Origin: a virus
Virus record (IMG/VR): IMGVR_UViG_3300032296_000415
Coordinates: 1-28,380 of that record
DNA length: 28,380 nucleotides
Strand: one strand, 5' to 3'
Below, in pieces: positions 69-18,652 of this stretch. The notes under the pieces were generated by a model. It searched no databases, had not been told where the DNA came from, and was given only the letters and a program-made list of their open reading frames with translations. Numbering within the stretch: position 1 is the stretch's first letter; each line of letters starts with the position of its first letter. Position numbers and translations under genes: made by a program.

Positions 69-198
69 CCTTGGGGAGTTGGTCACAAGGGTTAGTTCCG
101 ACGCACCGTTTGTCTGGTCGACGTTCTCCCTGCGTTGGAACTAGGGCAGAGTCTTGCAGTGGGGTTTCTCCCTCCTCAACTCCGGCGAGGCTCTGCCC
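69..198 (+). ncRNA. Candidate structured RNA / leader upstream of terL (three consecutive hairpins)
   Basis: Three adjacent inverted repeats fill this gap. H1 pairs 69-73 with 86-90 (5 bp). H2 pairs 93-105 with 131-143 (13 bp, one G-U at 100/136). H3 pairs 144-157 with 185-198 (14 bp, G-U at 152/190 and 155/187). All three non-Watson-Crick pairs are allowed only in + strand RNA; on the other strand they would be A-C mismatches. There is no U-tract after H3, so it is not an ordinary terminator, and the terL ribosome site at 207-210 lies just outside. It may be a leader, a processing signal, or by analogy with phi29 pRNA a packaging RNA. That analogy is speculation from position only. Confidence 0.45.
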
Positions 199-2667: not shown

Positions 2668-5127
2668 ATGGCAGTCGATAAGCCGCTCACTCCGTTTGAC
2701 ATTGAGATCGAGGCAGAGGACGAACTTGATGACATCGATGAACTCGGTGTCATTGAGGAGTCGGTTCTGACGGAGACTCCGACTGAGGACGGCGGCGTTG
2801 TCATCGAGTTTGAGTCCGTGTCGATTGAGCCAGAGTACGAGGACATCCCTCACGGTGACAACCTAGCCGAGCTGATCCCAGAAGATGAGCTCGAGTCCAT
2901 GGCAAGCGAGCTCGTGGGCAACTTCCTATCCGACCGCCGCACCCGTGATGATTGGGCCATGGCATACGTCAAGGGGCTCGATCTTCTTGGCATGAAGATC
3001 GAAGACCGCACACAGCCGTGGGAAGGCGCATCTGGCGTCTTCCACCCGATGCTGACTGAGGCGGCGATCCACTTCCAAGCTCAAGCCATGGGCGAAGTGT
3101 ACCCGGCCTCCGGCCCTGCCCGTTCAAAAATCCTCGGCAAGATGACTGCTGAGAAGTTTCAGCAGGCAACCCGCGTCGAGAATGAGCTGAACTACCTCAT
3201 CACCGAAAGAATGCCCGACTACCGCGAAGAGACGGAGCAGATGCTGTTCCGCCTTGCTCTGGCCGGAAGTGCCTTCAAGAAGGTGTACTACGACCCCATC
3301 CGAGAGGTCCCACGGTCAACCTTCGTGCCAGCCGAAGACTTCGTCGTGCAGTATGGGGCATCCAGCCTTTCAGACTCCGAGCGCTATACGCACGTCATGA
3401 GGAAGACGAAGGTCGAGATCATGAAGCTGCAAGCGAGCGGCTTCTATCGCGACGTCGATCTGCCTGATCCTTCGCAAGAGAAGAGCGACATTCAGGAAAA
3501 GTACGACGAGCTTCAGGGCATCGAAGACGTCGATAACGGTGATGACCGGTACATGATCCTCGAGATGCATGTCGATATGGTCATGCCGGAGGGCTTTGAG
3601 GACGGTGATGACATCGCTCGCCCATACGTCGTCACCATCGACAAGTCGTCTATGACCATCCTGTCGATCCGCAAGAATTGGTACGAGGACGACACAAAGA
3701 AGCAGAAGCGCATGCACTTTGTGCCGTACTGCTACCTGCCCGGTATGGGGTTCTATGGCATCGGCCTGATTCACCTCATCGGTGGCCTGACCAAGTCTGC
3801 GACGTCCATCCTGCGCCAGCTCATCGATGCTGGCACCCTTGCCAACCTTCCGGCTGGCCTCAAGGCTCGCGGCCTCCGCATCAAGGGCGACAACACCCCG
3901 CTGCGCCCGGGTGAGTTCCGTGACGTCGATGTACCGAGCGGCTCTATCCGCGACTCGATCACCTTCCTGCCGTACAAAGAACCTTCGAACGTCCTGTACC
4001 AGCTGCTGGCAAACGTTGTCGAAGAGGGTCGTCGCATCGGTTCTGTCGCCGACGTGAAGATCAGCGACATGAACGCTCAGGCTCCAGTTGGCACGACCCT
4101 TGCACTCCTCGAGCGCAACATGAAGGTCATGTCTGGCGTTCAGGCTCGTCTCCACTCGTCGATGCACAAGGAGCTTCGCCTGATCGCGAGCATCGTCCGT
4201 GACTTCATGGACGACAAATATGCATATGATCCAGACGGTGACTTCAGCCGCTCCGCTGACTTTGATGATCGAGTCGATGTCATCCCGGTCTCCGACCCCA
4301 ACGCGGCCACGATGGCTCAGCGCGTCATGCAGTATCAGGCTGCCCTGCAGATGTCTCAGCAGGCACCTCAGCTCTACGACATGGGCAAGCTGCACCGGAA
4401 CATGCTCGAGGTCCTTGGCATTCAGGACGCCGCCGACATCATCAAGCTGCCCGGCGACATCAAGCCGAAGGACCCCGTCAGCGAGAACATGGCTATGCTG
4501 AAGCAGGAGCCTGTAAAGGCCTTCCTGTATCAGGATCACGAGGCGCATATCCAGACCCACATGGCCGCGATGCAGGACCCGAAAATCCAGCAGCTGGTGG
4601 GCCAATCACCCTTCGCCTCAGCCATTCAGTCGGCGATGTCAGCGCACGTTACTGAGCACGTCGCCATGCAGTACCGCAAAGAGATCGAAAAGAGACTCGG
4701 CGTTGAGCTGCCGCCTGAGGATGCACCGCTGCCGGAGGACGTTGAGGTCGAGCTGTCTCGCCTTGTCGCCATGGCGGGCCAGAAGCTGACGCAGGAGAAT
4801 CAAGCTGCGGCGCAGCAGGCCGAGGCCGAGAAGCAGGCTCAGGACCCTCTGACGCAGATGCAGCAGAAGGAACTGCAGATCAAGGAGGCCGAAGTCATGG
4901 GTCGTCTTGAGATCGAGCGTGAGCGTCTCGACCTTGATCGGGCCAAGTCTGAGAGCAACATCGACGTCCAGCGTGAGCGCATCCGCTCCGAAGACCGCAG
5001 GGAGGGTGCCCGCATTGGTGTCCGCGTTGCGTCTCAGATTGAGGATGCCAAGCACAAGGACAAGACCGAGGGCGTTCGTCTTGGCATCGATATCGCCAAG
5101 GAACTCTCTAAGGGCGGAGGTCAGTGA
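2668..5127 (+). CDS. Portal protein (P22-like)
   Basis: The 819-residue protein forms the dodecameric ring at one capsid vertex through which DNA enters and leaves, and on which terminase and adaptors dock. An acidic leader (about residues 1-60) is followed by the portal core, with a TQPWEGASGVFHPMLTEA segment typical of P22-family podoviral portals. The C terminus from about 705 is a long charged coiled coil rich in Glu, Arg and Gln, comparable in place to the helical barrel of P22 portal. It is somewhat longer than P22 portal (about 725). Start ATG 2668 follows AGGGG at 2656-2660. Its stop overlaps the next start (TGATG). Confidence 0.92.
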   Translation: MAVDKPLTPFDIEIEAEDELDDIDELGVIEESVLTETPTEDGGVVIEFESVSIEPEYEDIPHGDNLAELIPEDELESMASELVGNFLSDRRTRDDWAMAYVKGLDLLGMKIEDRTQPWEGASGVFHPMLTEAAIHFQAQAMGEVYPASGPARSKILGKMTAEKFQQATRVENELNYLITERMPDYREETEQMLFRLALAGSAFKKVYYDPIREVPRSTFVPAEDFVVQYGASSLSDSERYTHVMRKTKVEIMKLQASGFYRDVDLPDPSQEKSDIQEKYDELQGIEDVDNGDDRYMILEMHVDMVMPEGFEDGDDIARPYVVTIDKSSMTILSIRKNWYEDDTKKQKRMHFVPYCYLPGMGFYGIGLIHLIGGLTKSATSILRQLIDAGTLANLPAGLKARGLRIKGDNTPLRPGEFRDVDVPSGSIRDSITFLPYKEPSNVLYQLLANVVEEGRRIGSVADVKISDMNAQAPVGTTLALLERNMKVMSGVQARLHSSMHKELRLIASIVRDFMDDKYAYDPDGDFSRSADFDDRVDVIPVSDPNAATMAQRVMQYQAALQMSQQAPQLYDMGKLHRNMLEVLGIQDAADIIKLPGDIKPKDPVSENMAMLKQEPVKAFLYQDHEAHIQTHMAAMQDPKIQQLVGQSPFASAIQSAMSAHVTEHVAMQYRKEIEKRLGVELPPEDAPLPEDVEVELSRLVAMAGQKLTQENQAAAQQAEAEKQAQDPLTQMQQKELQIKEAEVMGRLEIERERLDLDRAKSESNIDVQRERIRSEDRREGARIGVRVASQIEDAKHKDKTEGVRLGIDIAKELSKGGGQ

Positions 5128-5392: not shown

Positions 5393-5761
5393 ATGTATAC
5401 CGACAAAACCATAGGGGGCGATGACGTTCTCGCCAAGCTCCCAGAACCTAAGGGTTACCGCATCCTCATTGCGATCCCTGAGGTAAGCCAAAAAACAGAG
5501 GGCGGGGTGTTCATCCCTGATCAACTGAGGAACGCCGAGGAGACGGCGTCTCTTGTGGGCTACGTCATCAAGGTTGGCAGCGAGGCATATGCCGACCCCG
5601 TGCGCTTCCCCACGGGCCCTTGGTGCAAAGAGGGCGACTTCGTCATCTTCCGCTCTTACTCAGGCACACGCTTCAAGGTGCATGGCAAGGAGTTCCGACT
5701 CATCAATGATGACACCGTAGAGGCTGTCGTCGAAGACCCACGGGGGTATAGCCGCGCATGA
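5393..5761 (+). CDS. GroES-like (Cpn10-like) co-chaperonin protein
   Basis: The 122-residue protein has the chaperonin-10 beta-barrel pattern: PKGYRILIAIPE near residues 18-29, a mobile-loop-like stretch (KTEGGVFIPDQLR, about 34-46), a GYVIKVG turn (about 55-61) and CKEGDFVIFRSYSGTRF near 78-94, then VKxxGKEFRLI-like strands. GroES caps the GroEL chamber to fold client proteins. Phage versions such as T4 gp31 replace it for capsid folding. Its place between portal and scaffold suggests capsid assembly, but the mobile loop lacks a clear canonical IVL anchor, so a structural reuse of the fold is possible. ATG 5393 follows GGAG at 5384-5387. Confidence 0.8.
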   Translation: MYTDKTIGGDDVLAKLPEPKGYRILIAIPEVSQKTEGGVFIPDQLRNAEETASLVGYVIKVGSEAYADPVRFPTGPWCKEGDFVIFRSYSGTRFKVHGKEFRLINDDTVEAVVEDPRGYSRA

Positions 5762-7756: not shown

Positions 7757-8662
7757 ATGGCTATTTCACGCGCACAGGCCCTCAAAGAACTGCTTCCGGG
7801 CCTCAACGCCCTGTTCGGTCTTGAGTACGCCAAGTACGAAAACGAGCATGCCGAGATTTACGAGACTGAGACTTCGGAGCGTAGCTTCGAAGAGGAAGTG
7901 AAGTTGTCCGGCTTTGGCGCAGCTCCGGTCAAGCCGGAAGGCGCTGCCATCTCGTATGACAACGCACAGGAATCGTTCACCGCTCGTTACAATCACGAGA
8001 CGGTGGCCATGGGCTTCTCGATCACCGAGGAAGCCATGGAAGACAACCTGTACGACTCTCTGTCGGCTCGCTACACCAAGGCACTTGCTCGCGCCATGGC
8101 GTACACCAAGCAGGTCAAGGCAGCTTCGCTGCTGAACACCGGTTTCACCACGTTCCAGTCGGGCGACGGTGTGACCCTGTTCAACACCGCCCACCCGACG
8201 GTGGCTGGTGGCAACAACTCGAACCGTCCTGCGGTCGATGTTGACCTGAACGAGACTGCCCTCGAGCAGGCTGTTATCGACATCGCTGCGTTCAAGGACG
8301 AACGTGGCCTGTTGATCGCAGCTCGCCCGCGCAAGCTGATCGTTCCGCCGGGTCTGATGTTCGTGGCTACTCGCTTGCTGGAAACCGAGCTCCGCGTCGG
8401 CACCGCTGACAACGATCTCAACGCCATCAAGTCGAACGGCTCGATCCCGCAAGGCTACCGTGTGAACCACTATCTCACGGACGCCGACTCGTGGTACATC
8501 ACCACTGACATCCCGAACGGCATGAAGCACTTCGTCCGTACCGCGATGACTCAGTCGATGGACGGCGACTTCGACACTGGCAATGTCCGCTACAAGGCTC
8601 GCGAGCGCTACTCGTTCGGCGTGTCGGACCCGCTGGGTATCTACGGCTGCCCCGGCGCTTAA
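7757..8662 (+). CDS. Major capsid protein
   Basis: The 301-residue protein resembles the Mu gpT-like/HK97-fold capsid families. It has a Glu/Tyr-rich N-terminal arm, an ITEEAMEDNLYDSLSARY segment around residues 93-110, LFNTAHPTVAGGNNSN around 140-155, and a VPPGLMF strand followed by a basic ARERYSFGVSDP ending. It forms the icosahedral shell on the scaffold. Position after the scaffold, strong codon bias and a strong terminator directly after it support the most abundant virion protein. The start at ATG 7757 has AGGAGG at 7743-7748. No sign of a fused protease is present. Confidence 0.9.
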   Translation: MAISRAQALKELLPGLNALFGLEYAKYENEHAEIYETETSERSFEEEVKLSGFGAAPVKPEGAAISYDNAQESFTARYNHETVAMGFSITEEAMEDNLYDSLSARYTKALARAMAYTKQVKAASLLNTGFTTFQSGDGVTLFNTAHPTVAGGNNSNRPAVDVDLNETALEQAVIDIAAFKDERGLLIAARPRKLIVPPGLMFVATRLLETELRVGTADNDLNAIKSNGSIPQGYRVNHYLTDADSWYITTDIPNGMKHFVRTAMTQSMDGDFDTGNVRYKARERYSFGVSDPLGIYGCPGA

Positions 8663-8689: not shown

Positions 8690-8691
8690 TG

Positions 8692-8722
8692 AAAGGTCCA
8701 CTTCGGTGGGCCTTTCTTTTTT
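8692..8722 (+). terminator. Strong rho-independent terminator after the major capsid gene
   Basis: AAAGGTCCAC (8692-8701) pairs with GTGGGCCTTT (8706-8715) around a C(UUCG)G tetraloop, with one G-U pair, followed by CTTTTTT. This is a textbook intrinsic terminator. It should cap the highly expressed capsid transcript and limit reading into the tail genes. Confidence 0.93.
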
Positions 8723-17629: not shown

Positions 17630-18652
17630 ATGTTTGGCTTTAGTCCCTTCTCCGCAGCCCCATTCTCGGCGCTCGGCAGGAAGGACGACATTGTCGTCGG
17701 TCTCGTCGGCGTTGATGCGTCCGGTGCCGTTGGGAGCGTTGTCGCCCCCGCTGCGGCCATCCTCACGGGCGTGTCTGCCTCCGCCGATCTCGGCTCCGTC
17801 ATCGTCACTGCCTCCGCCCTTGTCCCCGTGTCCGGCGTGTCGGCATTTGTGGATGTCGGCTCCGTCAATGCCCAAGCTGGTGCTGATGTAGCTGTTTCCG
17901 GCGTCTCTGCGTCCGCTGACCTTGGTTCCGTCACCGTCACGGCCTCCGCGCTTGTGCAGCCATCTGGTGTGTCCGCTGCATGGCAGCTTGGCGACGTCAC
18001 TGTTGCAGCCTCTGCCCTTGTCCTCGCAACGGGCGTTTCCGCTGAAGCGCAGCTTGGTGATGTCGTCGTCACGGGATCGGCCCTAGTCCTTCCCACGGGC
18101 GTCTCGGGTGCATCGGCTCTTGGTGCGGTGGTCGTTCAGGCTGGCGCGGAAGTTCCTGTGGTCGGCGTCTCCGCCTCCGGTGCTGCTGGTTCCGTCACCG
18201 TTACTGGCTCTGCGGTCGTCATCCCGCTCGGCGTCAGCGCCGTTGGCCGCGTTGGTCAGGCCACCGTGTGGGGCAATATTGTGCCGAACCCCGGAACATC
18301 TTGGGACCCGCTCAACCCGGTGCCACCCACATCTTGGGACCCGCTCAACCCGGTGCCACCCACCTCTTGGAGTGCGATCTCCCCCTCGCCCGGTTCTGCG
18401 TGGACGGAGGTCGATCCAGATGCCATAAATTCATGGACAGAGGTGGAGCCAGCGCCCACCCCGGTATGGGGCAGCATCGTTCCAAACCCCGGCACGGCTT
18501 GGGACCCCCTCAACCCCACACCACCCACATCGTGGGCTGGCATCACACCTGCACCGGGTTCGGCGTGGACGCAGGTCGATCCTGATGCTATAAACGTGTG
18601 GACAGAAATTGAGCCAGCGCCCACCACGGTATGGGCCCCAGTCGCCGCGTGA
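17630..18652 (+). CDS. Repeat protein with 22-residue beta repeats and Trp/Pro C-terminal repeats
   Basis: Of 340 residues, about 25-215 form roughly eight 22-residue repeats of the type GVSASADLGSVTVTASALV, suggesting a beta-solenoid or stacked sheet rod. The C-terminal third (about 216-340) is built from WDPLNPxPPTSW and VWGxIVPNPGT modules; a two-part module of about 60 residues occurs twice. The DNA shows an exact 33-base tandem copy at 18296-18361. It has its own strong promoter. Proteins of this kind occur in marine phage tail modules. A fibre or outer-surface decoration is likely; no enzyme motif is seen. Confidence 0.8.
   Translation: MFGFSPFSAAPFSALGRKDDIVVGLVGVDASGAVGSVVAPAAAILTGVSASADLGSVIVTASALVPVSGVSAFVDVGSVNAQAGADVAVSGVSASADLGSVTVTASALVQPSGVSAAWQLGDVTVAASALVLATGVSAEAQLGDVVVTGSALVLPTGVSGASALGAVVVQAGAEVPVVGVSASGAAGSVTVTGSAVVIPLGVSAVGRVGQATVWGNIVPNPGTSWDPLNPVPPTSWDPLNPVPPTSWSAISPSPGSAWTEVDPDAINSWTEVEPAPTPVWGSIVPNPGTAWDPLNPTPPTSWAGITPAPGSAWTQVDPDAINVWTEIEPAPTTVWAPVAA
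18296..18361 (+). repeat. Exact 33-base tandem duplication
   Basis: Two identical 33-base copies (18296-18328 and 18329-18361) code for two TSWDPLNPVPP units. Exact identity shows a recent duplication or selection to keep it. Confidence 0.9.

Follow-up and report, generated by a model that had tools for sequence, protein, structure and literature searches.

A predicted structured leader RNA ahead of the large terminase gene in an uncultivated phage

The sequence ahead of terL, the gene for the large terminase subunit, in an uncultivated member of the Caudoviricetes is, as judged by comparison with related phages, a structured + strand leader RNA, and the back-to-back hairpins that it contains are confirmed as a genuine structure. 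The stretch of DNA analysed, referred to here as the window, is a complete virus record of 28,380 bases, which is probably a fragment; the genes recognised in it are all on the + strand, and its terminase/structural operon is the late operon. The leader is backed by compensatory mutations, has no match in Rfam and is joined by a relative family in dozens of phage contigs. It probably sits where late gene expression starts, and its likely role is to control the late genes of the phage. For uncultivated phages there are usually neither hosts nor RNA data, and leaders with a structure of this sort therefore tend to be overlooked.

Architecture and fold of the leader

The elements of the leader and the genes of the operon are the following.

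1-60, + strand: 5' stretch from the promoter-like AT element to the hairpins, with GTGTAC/GTAC dyads; kept in the clade relatives
64-87, + strand: hairpin H1, 64-70/81-87, loop UUGGGGAGUU; both-side changes in five of six counted pairs
93-143, + strand: hairpin H2 (A), 13 bp, 93-105/131-143; from the fold and aligned relatives
144-198, + strand: hairpin H3 (B), 14 bp, 144-157/185-198, plus inner pairs; from the fold and aligned relatives
207-210, + strand: probable Shine-Dalgarno of terL, GAGG; from the sequence
215-1723, + strand: terL, large terminase subunit, 502 aa; phrog_38 (E 5e-107), Pfam Terminase_6C
2668-5127, + strand: portal gene
5393-5761, + strand: GroES-like co-chaperonin gene, between the portal and head genes; phrog_3188
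7757-8662, + strand: major head protein gene

The start of terL was placed at ATG 215, 17 nt past H3, and relatives begin with similar residues, backing this start. The tail genes lie beyond the major head protein gene, and tandem coding repeats with 33/66/132-base spacing are present at 17741-18635, in a gene upstream of a tail collar fibre gene. Directly after the major head protein gene, at 8691-8716, there is a strong intrinsic terminator with an 11-bp stem, a UUCG loop and a T-run; past it stand TACTATATGCC and GTGTACAC, which are similar to the promoter/operator letters upstream of terL.

Judging by alignment, a promoter-like AT element would lie immediately beyond the edge of the window; in the relative L002 it is seen at approximately 1064-1087 (TTATATATATTATATATACTAC). 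A sigma-70 consensus scan for a promoter in the 5' stretch gave no match, and a search for a T7-like RNA polymerase (PF00940) in 17 related records gave no match either, as did its control. The GTGTAC/GTAC dyads are repeated at 14-47, after the presumed promoter, and are operator-like and conserved in relatives.

The initial annotation had drawn H2 and H3 with the coordinates given above and no base between them, and both were found exactly so, H3 beginning at the base directly after the end of H2. Its H1, a stem of 5 bp at 69-73/86-90, is broken in two relatives (CAACGG in L164 and CTAAGG in L084) and was redrawn as 64-70/81-87. The GGGGAG at positions 73-78 of the H1 loop is invariant in 14 relatives. 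The H2 loop is asymmetric, with a small inner hairpin followed by UUCUCCC (124-130) adjoining the 3' stem strand, and the H3 loop carries UUCUCCC at 166-172. The GGGGAG of the H1 loop has a complement in the CUCCCU of the H3 loop, and in the second lineage of close relatives (clade B, defined below), which has CUCCCC, the match is perfect. It was agreed that no U-tract follows H3.

The fold of 93-198 has an energy of -55.0 kcal/mol, compared with -33.7 +/- 3.5 kcal/mol for shuffled sequences (z -6.15, with none of 200 as low), and the opposite strand of the same stretch reaches -41.9 kcal/mol (z -2.5). Among 5656 segments of 106 nt sampled from both strands of the whole record, one folds as well. 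A long-range helix in the minimum-energy fold, 69-76/203-210, would hide the Shine-Dalgarno, and was rejected because it is mismatched in L084 and L178 and not kept in clade B. An Rfam search for known RNA families gave no match at gathering or relaxed thresholds.

Compensatory changes in close relatives

Close relatives were collected by searching for TerL, portal and TerS proteins and by matching a pattern to the TerL start. Their TerL proteins are 84-100% identical, and their leaders diverge much more than the protein does. Fourteen leaders from two lineages were aligned, namely the window lineage (the window, L002, L084, L164 and L178) and clade B (L004, L006, L007, L009, L086, L088, L093, L095 and L173), and pairs were counted with H1 taken as 65-70/81-86 and with H2 and H3 as in the window. 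The results showed that all three helices are kept across the 14 leaders, with standard pairs in 94.8% of cells. Both sides have changed in 48 cells compared with 18 expected by shuffle (0 of 500 shuffles), these relatives not being independent samples, and pairing falls to 37-43% when the partner is shifted by 1-3 columns. Most of the both-side change falls in H1 and H2, and H3 has two such pairs. Two of the five covariation measures, pairs with both-side change and further pair types, were not above shuffles, because the changes stem mainly from one split between the two lineages. The covariation in the clade of the window can accordingly be rated as good, not deep, on these alignments. The loop-loop pairing in the window clade is without covariation, its GGGGAG side being invariant.

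The initial annotation had argued from three wobble pairs, 100/136, 152/190 and 155/187, all of which are indeed G-U as + strand RNA. As an argument this bias is weak from three pairs alone, but strong across relatives. The 13 distinct close leaders contain 36 G-U cells and 0 A-C cells, implying that the constrained molecule is + strand RNA, and the ratio is 18 to 0 in the 30 distinct sequences of the compact family described below. The suggested selection on a + strand RNA is thus borne out by compensatory changes together with strand-specific wobble, and the covariation check proposed for homologous terL leaders found the pairing kept, with compensatory changes above shuffle.

Further variation was seen in individual relatives. 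In L003 (TerL 89% identical), an H3 counterpart with a different sequence is kept and H2 is rearranged; a match of the model R3, built from the window clade, at L003:3146-3225 (E 0.16), where stably folding hairpin sequence lies in the interval from terL to the portal gene, was judged to be due to chance. In L010 (TerL 84% identical), a long hairpin stands in the place of H3 and is followed by a U-run. This hairpin, at L010:690-760 and followed by seven U, is terminator-like, and attenuation before terL could take place in L010. At L176:930-945, a deletion of 12 nt between CACC repeats removes the Shine-Dalgarno region of terL relative to clade B, and is either a natural variant or an assembly error.

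A compact tandem-hairpin family in distant relatives

In contigs whose TerL is 70-75% identical, a compact tandem hairpin heads the same operon, and RNAs of this type are absent from the public RNA family library. Its consensus is GAGGCGC UAAGUCUCCCG GCGCCUC, directly followed by CGGUGGGG UU GAGCU NCCUCCCU AGCUC CCCCACCG and then UCA. The covariance model R1, built from 15 compact leaders, matched 53 members, 30 of them distinct (the model E-values are rough). In an alignment of the 30 distinct sequences fitted to R1, 97.8% of cells are paired, 13 of 20 pairs have both-side changes, and both sides have changed in 90 cells compared with 24 by shuffle (0 of 500); a MAFFT alignment of the 15 founders gives a like picture. 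The stems vary freely, and UCUCCC of the first loop (invariant in all 25 aligned loops) and CGUCA past the second stem are nearly invariant in the family. Conservation of the loops and not of the stems suggests that the loops probably contact something, and since such a contact would be specific and easily mutated, it could be tested with reporters and without phage culture.

A single significant match per record was obtained in records searched whole (sets of 14 and 7, the longest record reaching 65.6 kb). Wherever the flank is readable in these fragmentary records, the compact RNA lies inside the terL operon, in most cases some 20-35 nt upstream of the first start codon. The first gene after it is terL in L044, L047, L073, L117 and L147, and elsewhere a small ORF (NIIQFP type), MREDIIRAL or another ORF. 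About half of the members have a TATACT box 5-15 nt upstream of the first stem, with a CTAGTTA box approximately 17 nt further upstream in a subset, and these boxes are presumed to be a promoter. Because the distant RNA stays next to the promoter-like element whichever gene follows, its function lies with the operon and not with TerL. Of the earlier idea of a leader that controls terL translation, the leader stands, but the wider family follows the promoter and operon start rather than terL; translation control of whichever gene comes first is possible.

When bacterial and archaeal genomes were scanned with a pattern, one contig was found, in an Akkermansiaceae metagenome bin, which carries the same terL and is therefore phage DNA. 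The cultured relatives HTVC027P and HTVC023P, and the named phages 023Pt_psg01, DSL-LC04 and Pag-Yong1, gave no match to the compact model. In L117, positions 8482-8527 gave a near-threshold Rfam match to Mu-gpT-DE (47.6 bits, gathering threshold 49), a family named for its position downstream of Mu gpT-type head genes.

The compact models R1 and R2 do not match the window, even in searches run without filters, and R3 matches the compact member L032 at E 6 only, so that the evidence from the compact family transfers to the window element only by analogy of place and anatomy. The two have in common tandem hairpins 0-1 nt apart, a position at the head of the terL operon and an AT promoter-like element before them, and in the window, too, UCUCCC in the first loop adjoins the 3' stem strand and the second loop is UCC-rich. 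A descriptor search of 1.23 Mb of loci on both strands returned almost only such leaders, with two off-target matches, and the window clade scored highest. The TerL tree groups the compact members in a single cluster (support 86), with the window clade elsewhere; L105, on the window side of the tree, carries ahead of terL a compact double hairpin of intermediate appearance. The window element and the compact family appear likely to share common descent.

Possible modes of action and known systems

The reading that we prefer, tentatively, is that the element is a cis-acting 5'-leader of the late operon, whose anti-Shine-Dalgarno-like loops pair with purines of the leader and tune the first gene. 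The mRNA would start a little upstream, on the first bases of the window or immediately ahead of them, and the hairpins would fold as soon as they are made, acting in cis on the long late transcript. The UUCUCCC loops of the window and the UCUCCC loops of the distant relatives may serve as anti-Shine-Dalgarno-like arms, a guess at mechanism, and pair reversibly with a purine stretch in the same leader. The partner would be the H1-loop GGGGAG in the window and, in many relatives, the Shine-Dalgarno of the first gene, GGGAG; the pairing would set ribosome loading or mRNA lifetime of the first gene of the operon. In 16 of 22 relatives the ribosome site of the first gene contains GGGAG, whereas in the same loci the ribosome site of terL contains it in 5 of 22 (the rows are related). 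Together with the H1-loop GGGGAG, this favours control of ribosome loading by pairing inside the leader. Pairing with the local Shine-Dalgarno was rejected as the sole explanation, since loop A does not vary even in members that lack a following GGGAG; the members with an invariant UCUCCC loop and a first gene without GGGAG are L044, L047, L069, L073, L076, L117 and L147. A protein or another RNA as the partner, or a put-like action on RNA polymerase, is therefore possible.

Free stems with near-invariant UCUCCC and CGUCA are the usual pattern of a protein site, and the invariant loops could be the recognition sequence of a phage or host RNA-binding protein that autoregulates translation or acts in processing or mRNA stability; the loci pointed to no particular partner protein, however, and we regard this as a rather unlikely alternative. 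Slightly more doubtful is a put-like action, in which the emerging tandem hairpins bind the host RNA polymerase, which then ignores terminators along the late operon. The layout matches that of HK022 putL, the first stem in the distant family is about 5-15 nt past a TATACT-like element, the compact RNA stands at the operon head whichever gene is first, and a clear intrinsic terminator, that at 8691-8716 after the capsid gene, lies within the operon of the window. Terminators after capsid genes are common, though, and this one may simply work; moreover, the hairpins of the window clade sit 60-90 nt into the leader, and put stems are irregular, whereas the conserved part here is the pyrimidine loop. 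If the leader were instead cut out as a small RNA, its anti-Shine-Dalgarno loops would act in trans to silence mRNAs of the host or early mRNAs of the phage, as do the hairpins of alpha-r14, which the two hairpins with variable stems and CUCC-type loops resemble. Such a processed leader RNA would cover ribosome sites and switch translation to late genes, as a phage counterpart of alpha-r14. This is quite unlikely: no terminator lies past the second hairpin, so that a free RNA would need processing, the element is always joined to the operon, and the loops of the window clade drift (UUCUCCC, UUCCUCCC, GCUCCUCCU).

Two further readings are highly improbable. Likeness to the packaging RNA (pRNA) of phi29, raised in the initial annotation, has the position beside terL as its sole point; it is disfavoured by the Rfam search, which gave no pRNA match, the TerS gene (PF03592) in the close relative L004, the annotated small terminase in phage 023Pt_psg01 and the presence of similar RNA before different first genes. 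A DNA feature (pac/cos or a protein-binding dyad) is at odds with wobble pairs confined to one strand. A coding extension of terL could be read from the frame, which in the window has no stop as far back as GTG 65, but this extension was rejected as it is not kept in clade B, where the terL frame of L004 has no start further up.

A search limited to a library of open papers found no account of such a leader. Like phi29 pRNA, the RNA of the window is a phage RNA adjoining a packaging gene; it differs in having no sequence or structure match to pRNA and in that the close relative L004 has an ordinary small terminase of the Terminase_2 type, the window's own upstream genes being outside the record. 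The nearest positional parallel is put of HK022, whose adjacent stem-loops follow a phage promoter and open a long operon (PMC9378689). HK022 putL has two stem-loops in about 70 nt, just past the promoter, and exerts its effect over at least 10 kb; the stems of put RNA are irregular, and it contains a triplex as well as internal bulges (PMC9378689). Two stem-loops are established here as in put, and closeness to the transcript 5' end is presumed. Unlike put, the window and compact RNAs have regular stems and conserved pyrimidine loops and belong to a late operon, and antitermination by them is putative. Copies of put stand at two early operons, whereas one significant copy per record was found in the compact family, which also speaks against a put-like action.

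The nearest loop design is that of the alpha-r14/cuckoo sRNAs of Alphaproteobacteria (NfeR1, CcsR), which are likewise tandem hairpins with variable stems (PMC10746234). In alpha-r14 RNAs, the loop of each hairpin shows CCUCCUCCC, which is ultraconserved and blocks ribosome sites (PMC10746234). This motif is absent here, where the loops are UUCUCCC, UCUCCC or UUCCUCCC, and alpha-r14 RNAs are separate or processed trans-acting bacterial sRNAs, whereas the phage element is part of a leader with no terminator following it. What alpha-r14 and the phage leader share is a CUCC-rich anti-Shine-Dalgarno motif conserved in unpaired loops (PMC10746234).
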